Part shown: in pieces, positions 1 through 8,507 of the stretch
Position numbering within the stretch: the stretch's first letter is position 1
How the letters are laid out: each line of letters starts with the position of its first letter
Source of the DNA: Candidatus Gastranaerophilales bacterium
Lineage (GTDB): Bacteria; Cyanobacteriota; Vampirovibrionia; Gastranaerophilales; Gastranaerophilaceae
Assembly: GCA_944325155.1 (NCBI GenBank)
Contig: CALUYY010000006.1
Coordinates: forward strand, 1-64,000
Reading direction: 5' to 3'
DNA: 64,000 nucleotides
The notes under the pieces: generated by a model
What the model was told of the DNA's origin: nothing
The model's database searches: none
Seen by the model: the letters and a program-made list of their open reading frames with translations, nothing else
Program-made: the position numbers and the translations under genes

Positions 1-477
1 TTAAACTTAAACGTAAAAGACGTTAAAGAAAAAGAATATATCAAGATAAAACAGGAATTAAACAATAAAGATAAAAAAAATAACAATAATAATAAATTAA
101 ATAATAAAAACAAAAAACAACAAAAAAACGAAATACCCATTAATAAAACAATACAAAAATTAATTAAAGAAATAACAAACAAAAGAAAACCGAAAGAACC
201 TCTTTTTATCTCAAACTTCGGAGGAAGATTAGACAGAACTTTAGTATATAAAACATTCAAAGAAATAATAAATGAACTTAACCTTAAAAAAGATGAAAAA
301 AGTTCTTATTCACCGTCTTCATGGAGAAAAACATTCGGATATCATTACTATCAAAAATACAAAGACTTATCATTCTTGCAATATCTTTTCTCTCAACAAA
401 CAATCAATGAAACAATCAAATACATTGAAATAACCAACCCCTCTCAAACTTTTATTACAAGGGGGATGAATTTATGA
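1..477 (+). CDS. Tyrosine recombinase, C-terminal part (gene runs off the left edge)
   Basis: An open frame enters from position 1 without a start and gives 158 residues to a TGA at 475-477. An Asn/Lys-rich low-complexity stretch (about residues 20-45) is followed by a segment like the end of the XerC/phage-integrase catalytic domain: SSWRKTFGYHYYQK, then LQYLF, then IKYIEI, which holds the likely tyrosine nucleophile. Relatives usually read HxxRKTFGYH and FNHSS. Here the first catalytic His is Ser and the His/Trp position is Gln, so strand exchange may be impaired. The catalytic Arg I and the core-binding domain would lie outside the window. The stop overlaps the next start (ATGA at 474-477), so the glycosyltransferase is probably translationally coupled to this gene. 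Family call from remembered motifs only. Confidence 0.72.
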   Translation, partial: LNLNVKDVKEKEYIKIKQELNNKDKKNNNNNKLNNKNKKQQKNEIPINKTIQKLIKEITNKRKPKEPLFISNFGGRLDRTLVYKTFKEIINELNLKKDEKSSYSPSSWRKTFGYHYYQKYKDLSFLQYLFSQQTINETIKYIEITNPSQTFITRGMNL

Positions 478-1676
478 AGATTTTTCAAACCAAAACCGTC
501 AATAATAACGCTCACCAAAGAAAACAGATTAAAATTTTCGGTATTAAATTTACATTTAAAACCAAAGAATGGCTTGAAGCGCAAACACTGTACAACATAG
601 AACAAAATAAAATAAATCTCGGTTTTAACAAACCCGCAGGGAACAAAAATATTTTATTTATAGCGTCTAATTTTGTACAAGAAGGCGGAATTGAAACAAG
701 ATTAAGGCAATATATCGAAAAATTGTCGCCTGAAGGTTTTAATGTTTTTATTTTGAGCGAAGACAACAAAAACAAGTTTTTATCGGAACAGACTAATTTT
801 TATTTAAGCTTTGACGCTCCGAATTTTAATAATTGTTTAATTGAAATAATAAAAAATTACAATATCAATTTTATTGAATTTCAATTTAAAAATTCCAAAA
901 TCTTAAAAAAATTGAATTTGGACGTAATAAAAAAATATTCGGTTGTCGGCTGTACATTGCATAATACCGGAATTAAAAATATCAAGCTGATAAACAAATT
1001 GGATTATGCAATTATAGTGAGCAATTATTTGTATCAAAATCATTACAAAAAAATCAAAAATTCCGTAATTATCCAAAATGCAATTGATTTTTCAAAATTT
1101 GATAATATTTATTGGGAACATAAAAACCAGAACACGGCGCTTTTAATTTCAAGAGTTGCACAAGATAAATTAAATTCAATTGAATGTTTTATAAATTATT
1201 GCAAAAAACATAATATAAAATTTAAAATTGCGGGTGAAGAAAACAGCGACAGAAAAGTTAAAGACAAGCTCAAAGTAAAATACGGGCTGACAGATGACAT
1301 TTTTATCGGCAAAATAGATACAATTCCTTTTTTATCCGCTCACATGGATGATTTTTTATTTGTTGCAGGGGTCGGTCTTGTTATTTTGGAAGCGGGCGCT
1401 CTGAATTATCCCGTTTTTGTTTGTTCCGATACAAAGGGCGAATGCTATTCGTTTGTAACAAAAGAAAATGTTGATTTGTTTGATAATTTTACGATTAACA
1501 AAAAATCGCCCGTAATAATAAAACAAAAAAAAGAAAATTTGTTAAAAATAGCAAATATAGAATTTTATCAACTTAAAGGCTATATACAAATACACAGAAG
1601 GATTAATTCTTATATTGATATTTATCTTAAATCTTTAAATTGTCGAAATGTGGAGGAAAATATAAATGTTCAATAG
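474..1676 (+). CDS. GT4-like glycosyltransferase of the surface-glycan cassette
   Basis: The 400-residue protein has a GT-B fold pattern. NILFIASNFVQEGGIETRL (about residues 60-80) is the acceptor-domain start with the GGIET motif of GT4 enzymes. ALLISRVAQDK (about 223) opens the donor domain, and VGLVILEAGALNYPV (about 302) is the usual nucleotide-sugar E-x7-E region in a weak form. It should transfer a sugar from a nucleotide donor to a membrane-linked acceptor in polysaccharide or LPS assembly; the sugar cannot be told. The first 30 residues carry IKIFGIKFTFK, a tag shared with the next three proteins. A GGGG stretch at 461-465 can act as ribosome binding site. The start overlaps the recombinase stop and the end overlaps the next gene by 11 nt. 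Confidence 0.85.
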   Translation: MKIFQTKTVNNNAHQRKQIKIFGIKFTFKTKEWLEAQTLYNIEQNKINLGFNKPAGNKNILFIASNFVQEGGIETRLRQYIEKLSPEGFNVFILSEDNKNKFLSEQTNFYLSFDAPNFNNCLIEIIKNYNINFIEFQFKNSKILKKLNLDVIKKYSVVGCTLHNTGIKNIKLINKLDYAIIVSNYLYQNHYKKIKNSVIIQNAIDFSKFDNIYWEHKNQNTALLISRVAQDKLNSIECFINYCKKHNIKFKIAGEENSDRKVKDKLKVKYGLTDDIFIGKIDTIPFLSAHMDDFLFVAGVGLVILEAGALNYPVFVCSDTKGECYSFVTKENVDLFDNFTINKKSPVIIKQKKENLLKIANIEFYQLKGYIQIHRRINSYIDIYLKSLNCRNVEENINVQ

Positions 1677-2736
1677 ATTTTTTTCATTTGAGCGGAAAAA
1701 CTATCATAAAATTTTTAAAATTTTTGGAGTTAAATTCAAACTAAAAGATATGAAGGCAGTTGTCAAATTTGTGCAGGCTCAGCGAAATAATTTGAATTCT
1801 TTAACTGAATCAAATATTTTTTTATGGTCAAATAAAAATAAATTTACAAGCAGAGAAAAACTTTGGTTTTTATCTCAAGAATTTTATAGGCAATTGGGCT
1901 ATTTTCCCAATTTAAAAAATCCGAAATCATTTAATGAAAAAATAAATTGGATGAAATTAAATTATTACAATCCGATTGAAAAAAATATTATTGATAAATA
2001 TGAGTTTAAAGAGTTTGCTAAAGAAAGAATTGGCGATAAATATTTGATACCGACAATTGGCGTATACGAAAATATTTATGATGTAGATTTTGATAATTTA
2101 CCGATTCAATTTGTTATAAAAACAACAACTAATGGCTGTCAAGTTGGAGTAGATGTAATCAAGGATAAAAACAAAATTGATTTGCAAAAACTAAAACTCA
2201 AGTATTCCAATTTACTACAAGAATGGAATAGTGTTTATTATACTTGTCTTTCAAGAGGTTATAAAGATATAACGCCGAGACTTATAGTTGAGAAATACAT
2301 TCCAGAAATTGAAAAAAGTTCGTCAAAAGAATATAAAATATTTTGTTTTCATGGAGCGCCAAAGCTATTTTATATAATTAATTACAGAAACAAAAAAACG
2401 CTCACATACTATGACATCAACTGTAACAGACTGCCATTTGCAAATGGTAAATACAAAACCGACAAAAGGAGACATATAAAACCTTCAAAACACTTTGAAG
2501 AGATGCTCAAGATTTCAAAAATTTTATCAAACGATTTACCATTTGCAAGAATTGATTTTTATGACACGGATGAAAGGCTATATGTGGGCGAAATAACATT
2601 TACGCCAACGGGTGGATTTGGAAAGTACTCACCAAGAAAATATGATTATATTTTGGGAGAATATCTTAATTTGGAACAATTGCCCAAAGATAGAGTAAGT
2701 TTAATTCCCGAACTGGAGAATAAGCAGAATGTTTAA
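1666..2736 (+). CDS. TupA-like ATP-grasp ligase, copy 1
   Basis: The 356 residues match the TupA-like ATP-grasp family (named for the teichuronopeptide gene tupA): DKYEFKEF...IPTIGVYE (about 105-130), QFVIKTTTNGCQ (nucleotide-binding loop), an LQEW...SRGYKDI segment, IVEKYI, then FARIDFYD and VGEITFTPTGGFGKY near the C-terminus, which supply Mg/ATP ligands. Such enzymes activate a carboxylate with ATP and join it to an amine, so an amino-acid or peptide decoration of a surface polymer is plausible, but the substrate is unknown. The N-terminus has HKIFKIFGVKFKLK, the cassette tag. GGAGG at 1652-1656 fixes the start. It is the first of three tandem paralogues and shares a near-identical 62-nt tract with copy 3. 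Confidence 0.85.
   Translation: MFNRFFSFERKNYHKIFKIFGVKFKLKDMKAVVKFVQAQRNNLNSLTESNIFLWSNKNKFTSREKLWFLSQEFYRQLGYFPNLKNPKSFNEKINWMKLNYYNPIEKNIIDKYEFKEFAKERIGDKYLIPTIGVYENIYDVDFDNLPIQFVIKTTTNGCQVGVDVIKDKNKIDLQKLKLKYSNLLQEWNSVYYTCLSRGYKDITPRLIVEKYIPEIEKSSSKEYKIFCFHGAPKLFYIINYRNKKTLTYYDINCNRLPFANGKYKTDKRRHIKPSKHFEEMLKISKILSNDLPFARIDFYDTDERLYVGEITFTPTGGFGKYSPRKYDYILGEYLNLEQLPKDRVSLIPELENKQNV
1897..1958 (+). repeat. 62-nt near-identical tract shared by ATP-grasp copies 1 and 3 (first copy)
   Basis: This tract encodes the GYFPNLKNPKSFNEKINWMK segment of copy 1. It matches 4009-4070 with a single A/G difference (position 1909 against 4021). Flanking sequence and the equivalent part of copy 2 are much less alike at the base level. 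Confidence 0.85.
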
Positions 2737-3772
2737 AAAGTTTCATGATATTGGCGACAATTACCGACACGTTTTTAATCTGTTTGGAATAAAATTTAAA
2801 TTTTTAAGCAAACGAGCACTGATTGATACAATTAAAAACAATAAAAATAAAATTCTTATCACGGATGACAGAGCTTTTTTGTTTGTAAATCGTGATAACA
2901 TGACAAAAAAAGAAAAGGAATGCTATATACAAAATAAATTCTATAACATAGTCGGATATTTTCCGGATTTAAAGAATCCAAAATCCTTTAATGAAAAGCT
3001 TTTATGGCTTGAGCTAAATTATTATGACCCGAGACAAGAAGCATTTATTGATAAATTCGAATTTAAAAATCAAATAACCAATATTTTGGGCGAAAATTAT
3101 GTAATACCTCTAATTAAGTGCTACGACACCGTTTTTGATATAAACTTTGAAGAGCTTCCAAAAAAGTTTGTTTTAAAAACTACAAATGGCGGTTCAGGCA
3201 ATTATGGTATCTTGATTGTTAAAAATAAAAATAAATTAAATGTTGACTTTGCAAAATATAAACTTAACAAATGGGCACAAGAATGGATGAGTATTTACTA
3301 CTCGTCTTTATCAAGAGGATATAAAGACATAAGACCAAGAATTATTGCCGAAGAATATATTGAACAAGAAAACGGTCAATTATATGATTACAAATTTCAT
3401 TGTTTTCATGGGGAAATTAAAATAATCCTTGCAGTCAAAGACAGAATTTTTGGTAAAGGACACAAGATGTCTTTTTTAACCCCCGATTGGAAAGAACTAA
3501 ACATACATAGGGGCGACGCAAATTTGATTACCAAGGTGGAAAAACCGGCAGCTTTTGATGAAATGGTAAAAATTGCACAAAAGCTTTCCGCACCGTTTCC
3601 TTTTGTCAGAGTTGATTTTTATAATGCTAAAGGCAAAGTATATGTTGGAGAATTAACGTTTACGCCCATGAGTGGTTTTGGAAAATACGTACCCGAGAAG
3701 TGGGATTATATTTTAGGCGAATGGTTAGATTTAAACAAAATTAATAAAGAATACATTATTAAAGAGGGGTAG
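2729..3772 (+). CDS. TupA-like ATP-grasp ligase, copy 2
   Basis: The 347-residue protein is a paralogue of its two neighbours with the same landmarks: DKFEFKNQI (about 109), KFVLKTTNGGSGNYG (nucleotide loop), AQEWMSIYYSSLSRGYKD, IIAEEYIE, and FVRVDFYNAKG...VGELTFTPMSGFGKY near the end. It is the most divergent of the three: the nucleotide loop reads NGGSGNYG, and the block after EYI differs, with LAVKDRIFGKGHKMSFL in place of the LFYIINYR-type stretch, suggesting a different acceptor. The N-terminus carries NLFGIKFKFLSK, the shared tag. It overlaps copy 1 by 8 nt with GGAG at 2715-2718, and copy 3 begins 5 nt after its stop, so one transcript is likely. The reaction is inferred from the family only. 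Confidence 0.84.
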   Translation: MFKKFHDIGDNYRHVFNLFGIKFKFLSKRALIDTIKNNKNKILITDDRAFLFVNRDNMTKKEKECYIQNKFYNIVGYFPDLKNPKSFNEKLLWLELNYYDPRQEAFIDKFEFKNQITNILGENYVIPLIKCYDTVFDINFEELPKKFVLKTTNGGSGNYGILIVKNKNKLNVDFAKYKLNKWAQEWMSIYYSSLSRGYKDIRPRIIAEEYIEQENGQLYDYKFHCFHGEIKIILAVKDRIFGKGHKMSFLTPDWKELNIHRGDANLITKVEKPAAFDEMVKIAQKLSAPFPFVRVDFYNAKGKVYVGELTFTPMSGFGKYVPEKWDYILGEWLDLNKINKEYIIKEG

Positions 3773-3777
3773 TTTTT

Positions 3778-4833
3778 ATGCTAAAAAACACGCTATTTTC
3801 TATAAAACAGGAAAACAAGCACAAGGTAATTAAAATTTTTGGAATTAAGTTTAAATTTCTAAGCAACAATCAATTACGCAAAGAAATTGACAGTCTACCA
3901 AGATACAAAGAATTGTCTTTATTTAACTTATATATTCTGGACAAATGCAATCAACTAAATTTAGAAACAAAAAAAAGAATAATTTCGCAAAAGTTTTTTG
4001 AAAAATGCGGCTATTTTCCCGATTTAAAAAATCCGAAATCATTTAATGAAAAAATAAATTGGATGAAATTGTATTACAATAATTCAGAGCAAAAACGATG
4101 TGTAGATAAATTTGAATTCAAAAATTATGTAAATGAAAAACTGGGTCGTGGCTATACAATTCCGGCAATAGGAGTTTTTGAGGATATAGATGATATAAAT
4201 TTTGATGAACTACCAAATCAATTTGTTATTAAGTCAACAATATATGGTGGCAGATTGGGTCTTGAGATTGTCAAAGATAAGAGTAAATTAAATTTAAATC
4301 GGGTCAAGACTAAATTTACAAAATACTTGCAAGAGTGGCGAACCGCATACTATGATATGCTTGCCAAAGGCTATGAAGGACTAAAACCAAGAATTATTAT
4401 TGAAGAATATATTCCTTCAATACAAAGCTCTTCTTATGAATATAAGTTTTTTTGTTTTAATGGCGAGCCAAAATTGTTTTATGCGATAAATTATTACACC
4501 GGAGAAAAAGAATTAAATTATTATGATATGAATTTTAATATGCTACCCTTTAGAAACGGAGATTTTAAAAACTCCGGCGCAAAAAAACACACACCATCTC
4601 AAAAATTTGATTTAATGGTAGAACTTGCAAAAAAAATTTCCAAAGATTTCCCTTTTGTTCGAGTTGATTTTTACGACACTAAAGAACAATTATATTTAGG
4701 AGAATTGACATTTACTCCTACTGGCGGATTTGCAAAATATAAACCTCGTGAATGGGACTATAAGCTGGGTGATTATTTAGATTTATCAAATATTTTTGCT
4801 AATAATTTAGCCATTCCGACTGGGGTAAAATAA
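3778..4833 (+). CDS. TupA-like ATP-grasp ligase, copy 3
   Basis: The 351 residues show the same order of ATP-grasp TupA-like motifs: DKFEFKNYV, FVIKSTIYGGRLG (variant nucleotide loop), LQEWRTAYYDMLAKGYEG, IIEEYIPS, FVRVDFYDTKE and LGELTFTPTGGFAKY. It is closer to copy 1 than to copy 2, and bases 4009-4070 match copy 1 at 61 of 62 positions. The N-terminal tag is KVIKIFGIKFKFLSN. GAGGGG just before 3778 serves as ribosome binding site, and a GTG-started acyltransferase begins 2 nt after its stop. A role in ATP-dependent modification of a surface polymer is inferred. The three loops differ, so the copies may use different substrates. Confidence 0.84.
   Translation: MLKNTLFSIKQENKHKVIKIFGIKFKFLSNNQLRKEIDSLPRYKELSLFNLYILDKCNQLNLETKKRIISQKFFEKCGYFPDLKNPKSFNEKINWMKLYYNNSEQKRCVDKFEFKNYVNEKLGRGYTIPAIGVFEDIDDINFDELPNQFVIKSTIYGGRLGLEIVKDKSKLNLNRVKTKFTKYLQEWRTAYYDMLAKGYEGLKPRIIIEEYIPSIQSSSYEYKFFCFNGEPKLFYAINYYTGEKELNYYDMNFNMLPFRNGDFKNSGAKKHTPSQKFDLMVELAKKISKDFPFVRVDFYDTKEQLYLGELTFTPTGGFAKYKPREWDYKLGDYLDLSNIFANNLAIPTGVK
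4009..4070 (+). repeat. 62-nt near-identical tract shared by ATP-grasp copies 1 and 3 (second copy)
   Basis: Partner of the tract at 1897-1958, one mismatch in 62 nt, same reading frame. It fits gene conversion or a recent partial duplication between the tandem paralogues. Confidence 0.85.
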
Positions 4834-4835
4834 AG

Positions 4836-5945
4836 GTGCAAAATTCCTTGATAAAAAACATTGAATTTTTAAGAATAATAGGCTGTGTTGCCGTAATTTT
4901 ATTACACCTTTTTACAAGAATGCATATCGGTGCATTGGATGATATTGAAATTTATAATAAGTTGTTGACTATAACGCAAAATGGCGATAAGGCCGTTGAT
5001 TTATTCTTTATTTTATCGGGGTTTTTCTTTTGTTATAAATTAAATTTAAAAACTTCAATGTTTGATTTTATAAAACACAAGGTTTTAAGGCTTTGGCCCG
5101 TTTTGATTTTTGTTCTTACTCTTTATTTTCTTCTTAATATTGCAGGGATAATAGAAGTAAATTTTTATTACTATTTGTTATGTTTTCTGGGTTTAAACGG
5201 CACAAATTTGGTTTTGGTTAACAGCGGAAGCGGCGTTTTTTGGTATGTTTCCGCTATGCTTTGGGTTTTAGCCTTTTATTATTATCTTTTAAAAAATTAT
5301 CAGGAAAAAAATGTTAATTTAACAATAGCGTTGATTGTTTTCTTTTCATACGGGTTTATAATTCATGCGCTGAACGGCACCATAAAAGGTCATGACTTGA
5401 TGTTTAGAGGCATTATCTGCATAGGGACATTAAGGGCGCTTGGCGGAATCGGCACAGGGTATTTTATCGGTTTGTGGTATAAAAACAATCTTGATAAAAT
5501 CAAAAATTTTAATTATAAAATCTGGCATATTTTAGCTTTAACTTTTATTGAATTTATTTCATTATATTTTATTATCAATAATTTAATGCTTCATAAATTA
5601 AAATTTAAAAACCAAATTGTTTTTATCATAGCTTTTGTTGCGGTTATTATTGCGTTTTTAATTAATAAAGGTTTTATTTCAAGGTTTTTAAATAAAGATT
5701 GGTGTGTTAACATTGCAAAATATACATATTCTTTTTATATGACACACAGCTTCGTGTTTAATGCGATAAAAAATTCAATTTGGAAAAACCACCCTGAAAT
5801 TATTATTGCACATCCTTATTTAAACCTTTTTATCACATTGGCTTTGGTTTTTATTTTAGGGATATTTACTTATCATTTTGTTGAAGCGCCCTGTGCTAAA
5901 TATTTTAAAAATAAAAACTTAAAAATCCTCGGGGGGGGGGGGTAA
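4836..5945 (+). CDS. Acyltransferase-3 family membrane protein ending in a poly-G tract
   Basis: The 369-residue protein has about ten hydrophobic segments and the acyltransferase-3 (OafA/WecH-like) marks: NIEFLRIIGCVAVILLHLF near the N-terminus with the conserved Arg and His, LFFILSGFFFCYKL, and a final HFVEAPCAKYF, the usual family ending. Such proteins acetylate or otherwise acylate sugars of surface glycans at the inner membrane. The start is GTG at 4836, 2 nt after the preceding stop; GGGG at 4822-4825 is the only ribosome-binding candidate. The last four codons are GGG from a run of 12 G. A change in tract length would alter only the C-terminal tail. It is the last gene of the cassette, convergent with metG. 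Confidence 0.85.
   Translation: MQNSLIKNIEFLRIIGCVAVILLHLFTRMHIGALDDIEIYNKLLTITQNGDKAVDLFFILSGFFFCYKLNLKTSMFDFIKHKVLRLWPVLIFVLTLYFLLNIAGIIEVNFYYYLLCFLGLNGTNLVLVNSGSGVFWYVSAMLWVLAFYYYLLKNYQEKNVNLTIALIVFFSYGFIIHALNGTIKGHDLMFRGIICIGTLRALGGIGTGYFIGLWYKNNLDKIKNFNYKIWHILALTFIEFISLYFIINNLMLHKLKFKNQIVFIIAFVAVIIAFLINKGFISRFLNKDWCVNIAKYTYSFYMTHSFVFNAIKNSIWKNHPEIIIAHPYLNLFITLALVFILGIFTYHFVEAPCAKYFKNKNLKILGGGG
5931..5942 (+). repeat. Poly-G(12) homopolymer, candidate slippage tract
   Basis: Twelve consecutive G encode Gly-Gly-Gly-Gly just before the TAA of the acyltransferase. No other G or C run in this AT-rich window comes near this length. Eleven G would add 14 residues (KIAFISPNPYFCAI) after the glycines; thirteen would add Val-Lys and stop. 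Confidence 0.9.
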
Positions 5946-6082
5946 AATAGCCTTTATTTCCCCAAACCCTTATTTTTGCGCAATTTAGAATTTATGCAGT
6001 TCGGAACCGTGTGCTCAATTTTTAATGTTTTTGAGCTTGGATTGTTAATAATGATATGGTTTGCTAAAAGGGCATATGATTT

Positions 6083-7739: not shown

Positions 7740-8507
7740 ATGAGAGTAGAAAAAATTAATTCAAATTATTATATACAAAATAAAAATACAAATTATAAAA
7801 CTCCGCCATCAAAAACCGATTATATAAGTTTTACGGGCGAAAAAGAAAGTTTGAAGCCTTCTTTTATACAAAAAATTGCATCGTTTTTTGAAGCGGAAAA
7901 TTTAACCCCCGAAAAAGAAACAAGCAGTGAAATAGAAGAGGTGGTCGGACATGTTCAGGATGAAGTAAGGCAGTCGGTAAAAAATGCAAAATGGGAAAAG
8001 GCAATTTTGCATGATTTAATTAAAATCGGCGAATACGGCAGATTTGAAGGCTATATACCCGTAAACAAAAAAAGCGGCGAAAAGCTTAAATTCGGAGAAT
8101 TTGACGAAAACGGACGCCCGAGAGAAATGGTTGTCATAAACACAAAAAACGGGGCTTTTAAGACCGTTTGCGCATACAGTTTATTTGACGGGGAAAACGC
8201 TTTTCAAAAAAGAGATTATTCTTTTGAAGGAGCCGTTGTTTCAAGCGATTATATAAACGGAAAATTGCTTTATTTAAGACAAACAAACAACGAAGATAAA
8301 AGCATTTGCGAAATTATTCCGTCCCGCAACGGTTTTTATTATTTCTGCGGCAGAAAAGACGAATTTGACAACGCCGAAGAAACAATTTTTGAAGTTCAAT
8401 TTTCAAACGATAAAACAAAAGATTCAACCGTAAGTCTGAAAGATGATGACGGAGTACAAAGATATTATTTATACGACCGCAAAAAAAGAATGTGGATTGA
8501 ACAATAA
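7740..8507 (+). CDS. Orphan protein with N-terminal ISFTG motif
   Basis: The 255-residue protein is not recognised. No signal peptide or membrane segment is visible. Residues 1-35 are Asn/Tyr/Lys-rich and end in YISFTGEK; a charged stretch follows (about 55-95), then a beta-rich region with repeated strand-turn patterns (GYIPVNKKSGEKL, FDENGRPREMVVINTKNG, YFCGRKDEFDNAEE, YYLYDRKKRMW) that looks like an MORN/YD-style antiparallel sheet. The ATG is preceded by GAGG. It is convergent with mnmE, with 2 nt between the stops. A short ISFNG near the N-terminus of the orphan at 51327 may be related. Function unknown. Confidence 0.75.
   Translation: MRVEKINSNYYIQNKNTNYKTPPSKTDYISFTGEKESLKPSFIQKIASFFEAENLTPEKETSSEIEEVVGHVQDEVRQSVKNAKWEKAILHDLIKIGEYGRFEGYIPVNKKSGEKLKFGEFDENGRPREMVVINTKNGAFKTVCAYSLFDGENAFQKRDYSFEGAVVSSDYINGKLLYLRQTNNEDKSICEIIPSRNGFYYFCGRKDEFDNAEETIFEVQFSNDKTKDSTVSLKDDDGVQRYYLYDRKKRMWIEQ

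Follow-up and report, generated by a model that had tools for sequence, protein, structure and literature searches.

A surface-glycan gene set headed by a degenerate tyrosine recombinase, and a candidate invertible-promoter switch in related bacteria

Gene organization at the start of the window

Which element could render the surface-glycan genes at the beginning of this DNA variable: the recombinase-family gene in front of them, the poly-G tract at their end, or a sequence located further upstream? The window, i.e. the complete stretch of 64,000 nucleotides that was analyzed (G000:C6:1-64000), belongs to a genome (G000) of 1.88 Mb in 23 contigs. Its first 5945 positions contain six co-directional ORFs (1-477, 474-1676, 1666-2736, 2729-3772, 3778-4833 and 4836-5945, plus strand), which overlap by 4, 11 and 8 nt or are separated by gaps of 5 and 2 nt. 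These coordinates agree with the original prediction of six genes on one strand, each overlapping or within 5 nt of the next. It is fairly probable, in our view, that these genes make up the first part of a recurrent kind of surface-polysaccharide operon, a judgement that refers to the whole model outlined below.

The first gene (1-477), termed RecW, encodes a pseudo-recombinase comprising the Phage_integrase catalytic domain alone (PF00589, 6.6e-13). It had been regarded as a recombinase fragment. While its affiliation to this family was confirmed, the gene is not a biological fragment but lacks its 5' end because contig C6 begins at window base 1. At the junction AAGGGGGATGAATTTATGAA (459-478, plus strand), the RecW stop codon and the start codon of the first glycan gene share the sequence ATGA. 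The glycan genes comprise a GT4-like glycosyltransferase with an N-terminal FGIKFTF tag (474-1676; PF13692/PF00534, weak match of 4.8e-5, below the curated cut-off), three TupA-like ATP-grasp ligases with N-terminal tags at 1666-2736 (PF14305, 4e-51), 2729-3772 (4e-50) and 3778-4833 (4e-51), and an acyltransferase-3 family membrane protein at 4836-5945 (Acyl_transf_3, PF01757, 1e-28, residues 7-344 of 369). Thus, the Pfam matches are in line with the GT4, TupA and acyltransferase assignments proposed earlier. The predicted near-identical tract was also found: positions 1897-1958 of TupA1 (plus strand) and 4009-4070 of TupA3 differ by one mismatch in 62 nt, the genes being 67% identical overall. 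The sequences suggest that this tract was probably shared by gene conversion. Downstream of the operon genes, the window contains a gene (7740-8507) for a 255-aa protein without a Pfam match, which lies between metG and mnmE-like genes; a similar-sized gene occupies the same place in some congeners.

RecW copies within the genome

Two further RecW copies were detected in G000, a full one of 190 aa on contig C1 and a partial one at the end of contig C16. The C1 and C6 copies are 98.7% identical over 375 nt (99% at the amino acid level), and in all three copies the stop codon of RecW and the start codon of the glycan gene behind it overlap in the same ATGA. Alignment of the three copies revealed that the identity of C1 and C6 stops at the start codon of the first glycan gene, and that the glycan sets behind them are mutually unrelated. 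On C6, GT4, three TupA and acyltransferase genes are present. C1 contains a GT8-GT2 fusion followed by nucleotidyltransferase-, CDP-sugar dehydratase- and RfbH-like genes (the latter by inspection), and C16 harbors GT2, sugar-nucleotide, pyruvyltransferase and FAD enzyme genes. C6 and C16 share a 3' segment of 92 nt including a G12 tract (window 5908-5999, plus strand; 84% over 92 nt), which is missing from C1. Another region of C1 (L190, G000:C1:286001-306000) contains ketosynthase, acyl carrier, dehydratase and acyltransferase genes resembling, by inspection, an aryl polyene cluster.

Active sites and distribution of RecW and RecC

To describe RecW and its intact sister recombinase RecC, which is frequently situated upstream of RecW in relatives, sets of both proteins were collected. 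They are samples rather than censuses, and some loci are near-identical; for RecW, duplicate loci were removed before residues were counted in the 30 unique sequences. Genes of the relatives were called by a plain longest-ORF method, while recombinase and poly-G counts stem from searches across the genome contigs. In RecW, the His of the HxxR motif is lost in all 30 sequences, the third His in 27 and Arg-I in 26. The Tyr is replaced by Phe in 18 sequences and kept in 12, whereas R-II is conserved in 30/30. The window protein has Ser instead of the HxxR His (SSWR) and Gln instead of the third His but retains Tyr and R-II; in the C1 copy Arg-I is changed to Lys, and the RecW of L222 retains Arg-I, Lys at H-II and Tyr. 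In RecC, all catalytic residues checked are intact in 47/47 proteins. RecW sequences form a single clade (100/100 support). Judged from its sequence, RecW is a monophyletic, catalytically degenerate tyrosine recombinase, whose missing catalytic residues rule out that it acts as an invertase. Hence, the assumption that the recombinase of the window is an active source of variability is not supported, since this gene lacks catalytic residues.

RecW is located at the head of glycan operons in nearly all of the 29 loci examined, which belong to several genera, and its stop is coupled or nearly coupled to the following start codon. According to Pfam, nucleotidyltransferases (11) and GT2 enzymes (10) are the most common products of the gene after RecW. 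L239 is an exception, as an HU gene lies 276 nt from RecW. Two viral homologues of RecW were found (29-30% identity). In G000, the sole intact RecC of the glycan-linked kind that was found resides on C17. A DNA element common to the upstream regions of all RecC genes was not seen by eye. The HipA profile matched eight proteins encoded upstream of RecC genes. One RecC subfamily, starting with MNVVQPIKK or MNIVEPIKS (L127, L130, L131, L132, L135, L138), adjoins HipA-size genes on the opposite strand and is often located ahead of restriction-modification genes; it lacks long inverted repeats downstream.

Inverted repeats and promoter-like elements in relatives

Perfect inverted repeats of at least 15 bp (15-30 bp) occur downstream of RecC in 16/47 loci compared to 7/723 control positions (p = 4e-16), which rules out a chance origin. 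Where RecC adjoins HipA or restriction-modification genes, no repeats of 15-30 bp were seen. Among the RecW genes without RecC, seven loci contain repeats of 18-31 bp whose end lies 26-65 nt upstream of the gene; six of these are distinct because L226 and L227 share one. At some RecW/RecC loci, including L232, L235, L238, L239 and L126, a clear inverted repeat is absent.

A comparison of L233 with L241 and L120 revealed collinear flanks, only the central ~170 bp being reversed, so that both orientations of the segment are observed between species. The sites of L233 and L241 consist of palindromic arms around a 6-bp core (TAGCCA/TGGCTA), with the arms swapped in the way that strand exchange at the core would predict. 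A promoter-like element of the TTTTTGTTTGTGATAATAT type is 11-fold enriched inside the segments, in both orientations, compared to the background. It points forward in L233, L237 and L242 and reverse in L118, L119, L125, L241, L120, L243, L229 and L236. Taken together, the repeats, the promoter-like element facing either way and the inverted locus pair indicate that relatives carry a candidate invertible-promoter switch ahead of glycan operons. At gap position 55, L233 and L241 possess a third TAGCC core, which might permit more than one inversion. On C1, the core-like sites upstream of RecW amount to no more than one degenerate pair, and the switch of the window locus itself is not visible because contig C6 ends there. 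The window stretch shows no excess of promoters or terminators.

TupA-like ligases and the terminal tag

TupA of teichuronopeptide synthesis in Bacillus is the source of the Pfam family name, but the window ligases differ from it in host, operon and probably acceptor. Their PF14305 scores (174, 171 and 174 bits) by far exceed the curated cut-off of 25, and the invariant ATP-grasp residues are K152, E209, K223, R295, D297 and E309. An AF2 model of TupA3 (mean pLDDT 79) has an ATP-grasp fold resembling D-Ala-D-Ala ligases, RimK and LysX, while no convincing sequence relatives of the trio were found in the PDB. A search of 98 genomes detected PF14305 in 14, and eight congeners gave no match; the trio is therefore rare. 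A genome outside the 98, G218 (L240), which belongs to another genus of the family, contains RecC and RecW followed by GT4 and three tagged TupA genes, whose products are 50% (GT4) and 40-51% (TupA) identical to those of the window. The fifth gene of this operon does not encode an acyltransferase. The gene order originally proposed for a search in relatives thus recurs with respect to GT4 and the three ligases, but not the acyltransferase. The G218 operon also includes exporter and pyruvyltransferase genes.

In Campylobacter jejuni, the TupA-like domain of Cj1438, encoded in a surface-polysaccharide locus, forms an amide at the C6 carboxylate of glucuronic acid (PMC11800379). The window ligases are likewise TupA-like ATP-grasp proteins, but they are separate products of three consecutive genes, carry an N-terminal tag and are not fused to a GT2. 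With this precedent for an amide on a sugar, the prediction of a surface-glycan set combining a recombinase-family gene with three TupA-type ligases is upheld, and its layout is operon-like. Based on the ATP-grasp residues, the AF2 matches and the analogy to Cj1438, our best guess is that the trio decorates a surface polymer with amides. It is quite unlikely that the ligases build a peptide-like or other metabolite instead of acting on polysaccharide. ATP-grasp enzymes form many kinds of amides, and the enzymes similar to the model would fit this reading as well, but the trio follows GT4 in both genera, in G218 within a glycan operon with exporter and pyruvyltransferase genes, and the C-terminal domain of Cj1438 provides a precedent for activity on a sugar. 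Should the best guess be correct, the trio points to amide-decorated surface polymers in this lineage, for which we know of no glycan structures. In two other loci, inspection revealed a TupA-like domain behind a GT-like region (L049, 746 aa) and a tagged TupA-like domain fused to a radical-SAM-like C-terminus (L050, 629 aa).

The tag, similar to LFSIKNxxxHKVIxIFGIKFKFK (FSIKN...LGIKIKFK), opens GT4 and all three ligases (519-563, 1681-1746, 2735-2806 and 3793-3861). Many operon proteins of relatives carry it as well, at either terminus, and the catalytic domains to which it is attached are unrelated. Among 165 operon proteins there were 22 terminal matches compared to ~1.4 in shuffles, a few of the 22 looking like chance. 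AF2 predicted three short strands for the tag with low confidence, and neither a Pfam family nor a literature search for the motif gave a match. Possibly, the tag serves for docking to a shared partner.

Proposed model and alternative explanations

The recurrent operon type, an arrangement seen in relatives, comprises RecC (a predicted active small tyrosine invertase, encoded adjacently or acting in trans), a putative invertible promoter segment of ~130-300 bp, RecW and variable glycan genes. In the window, the promoter would be located just upstream of RecW, beyond the contig end, and flipped by RecC. With the promoter facing RecW the entire operon would be transcribed, and RecW would be made only in the ON state. 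Since RecW is unable to perform normal cleavage chemistry, it is a putative site binder that probably biases or locks the switch, or else a leader regulator. Judged from the protein families, GT4 may add a sugar, the TupA-like ligases may join carboxyls, probably of uronic acids, to amines or amino acids as amides, and the acyltransferase may add an acyl group; the payloads behind RecW differ between genomes as well as between loci of G000. As a whole, this switchable glycan operon with RecC, invertible promoter, RecW and variable payload has our moderate confidence. More tentative, and somewhat short of an even chance, is the idea that RecW, a recombinase that has lost its activity, has become a regulator, which occupies the inversion sites and sets the duration of the glycan ON state as a self-made timer. 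If true, each glycan operon would carry its own timer for phase variation. An invertible promoter upstream is more likely to be the source of variability than the poly-G tract or RecW activity.

Among known systems, inverton control of surface polysaccharides comes closest, for example at the capsule loci of Bacteroides fragilis, with which Mpi and UpxY are associated. Like the candidate switch, it features inverted repeats on both sides of a promoter segment in front of glycan operons, a site-specific recombinase and ON/OFF orientations. By contrast, the recombinase described here is a tyrosine recombinase often encoded beside the switch, a catalytically dead paralogue is the first operon gene, and the core sites vary from locus to locus. 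RecC and RecW also resemble the small tyrosine invertases FimB and FimE (~180-200 aa) in having the catalytic domain without an N-terminal core-binding domain. However, they match NCBIfam PRK09871 below its curated cut-off (RecC 8.4e-12, RecW 3.7e-7) and score closer to the catalytic domains of XerA/XerC, and RecW lacks the active site. No account of phase-variable glycans in these bacteria was retrieved by a literature search. A recurring module of switch and pseudo-recombinase would account for surface diversity across the family and provide a handle for finding and comparing glycan loci. It would also make it possible to test, as a new question, whether a dead recombinase can control inversion bias.

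Instead of being switched, glycan sets might be swapped as mobile cassettes by homologous or site-specific recombination, with RecW as 5' and the poly-G segment as 3' exchange point. The sharp divergence of C1, C6 and C16 behind their common RecW, the 3' segment shared by C6 and C16, and the fact that in congeners neither metG nor isocitrate dehydrogenase adjoins glycan genes are in favor of this explanation, which nevertheless appears unlikely: C1 lacks the 3' segment, RecW is degenerate, and the ancestral neighbour genes are located elsewhere in the genome. For the latter reason, it is not demonstrated that glycan genes were simply inserted at either of these two genes, and this idea was set aside. 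On the other hand, a promoter switch would be compatible with homologous exchange at RecW. We deem it very unlikely that an ordinary glycan operon merely lies beside a decaying phage-type integrase linked to it by hitchhiking. Phage and restriction-modification genes near the recombinases of some relatives and the lacking promoter/terminator excess in the window stretch would fit, but in nearly all of the 29 loci, across several genera, RecW has been kept as an intact ORF directly before the glycan genes, with start codons that are coupled or almost so.

Least of all do we expect slipped-strand phase variation, in which the G12 tract at 5931-5942 (plus strand, final acyltransferase codons) would switch the acyltransferase. 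It is true that tracts of this kind are far longer than expected by chance: four G12 tracts were found in the genome compared to ~0.05 expected from a first-order Markov estimate, and all five sites of G10 or longer are situated inside or adjacent to genes of the surface-glycan type. The poly-G tract noticed originally thus exists. However, it is located beyond the Acyl_transf_3 domain, and the C-terminal tail varies with its length by 0, 1 or 14 residues. Because only this tail is affected, the tract is unable to switch the enzyme off; as the alternative frames add just 1 or 14 residues, this function was ruled out. Moreover, the C16 version of the segment sits after a stop codon.

The C16 tract (L026, 6354-6365) is located just past the FAD enzyme gene that closes the glycan locus. 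On C17 (L027, 7141-7152) and C1 (L023, 4397-4406), G tracts lie in frame within genes for a GT56-like glycosyltransferase and a hexapeptide acetyltransferase, respectively, while the tract on C13 (L024, 6752-6763) splits the frames of an AlgX-type gene, which is likely in an off state. In two other genomes, G10-G13 tracts occur a few dozen nt past the start codon of type-IV-pilin-like genes, which encode a leader before FTLAEVLITLG; these genes, seven copies in G012 (L062, L070, L073, L074, L075, L076 and L077) and L065 in G016, look like phase-variable pilins.
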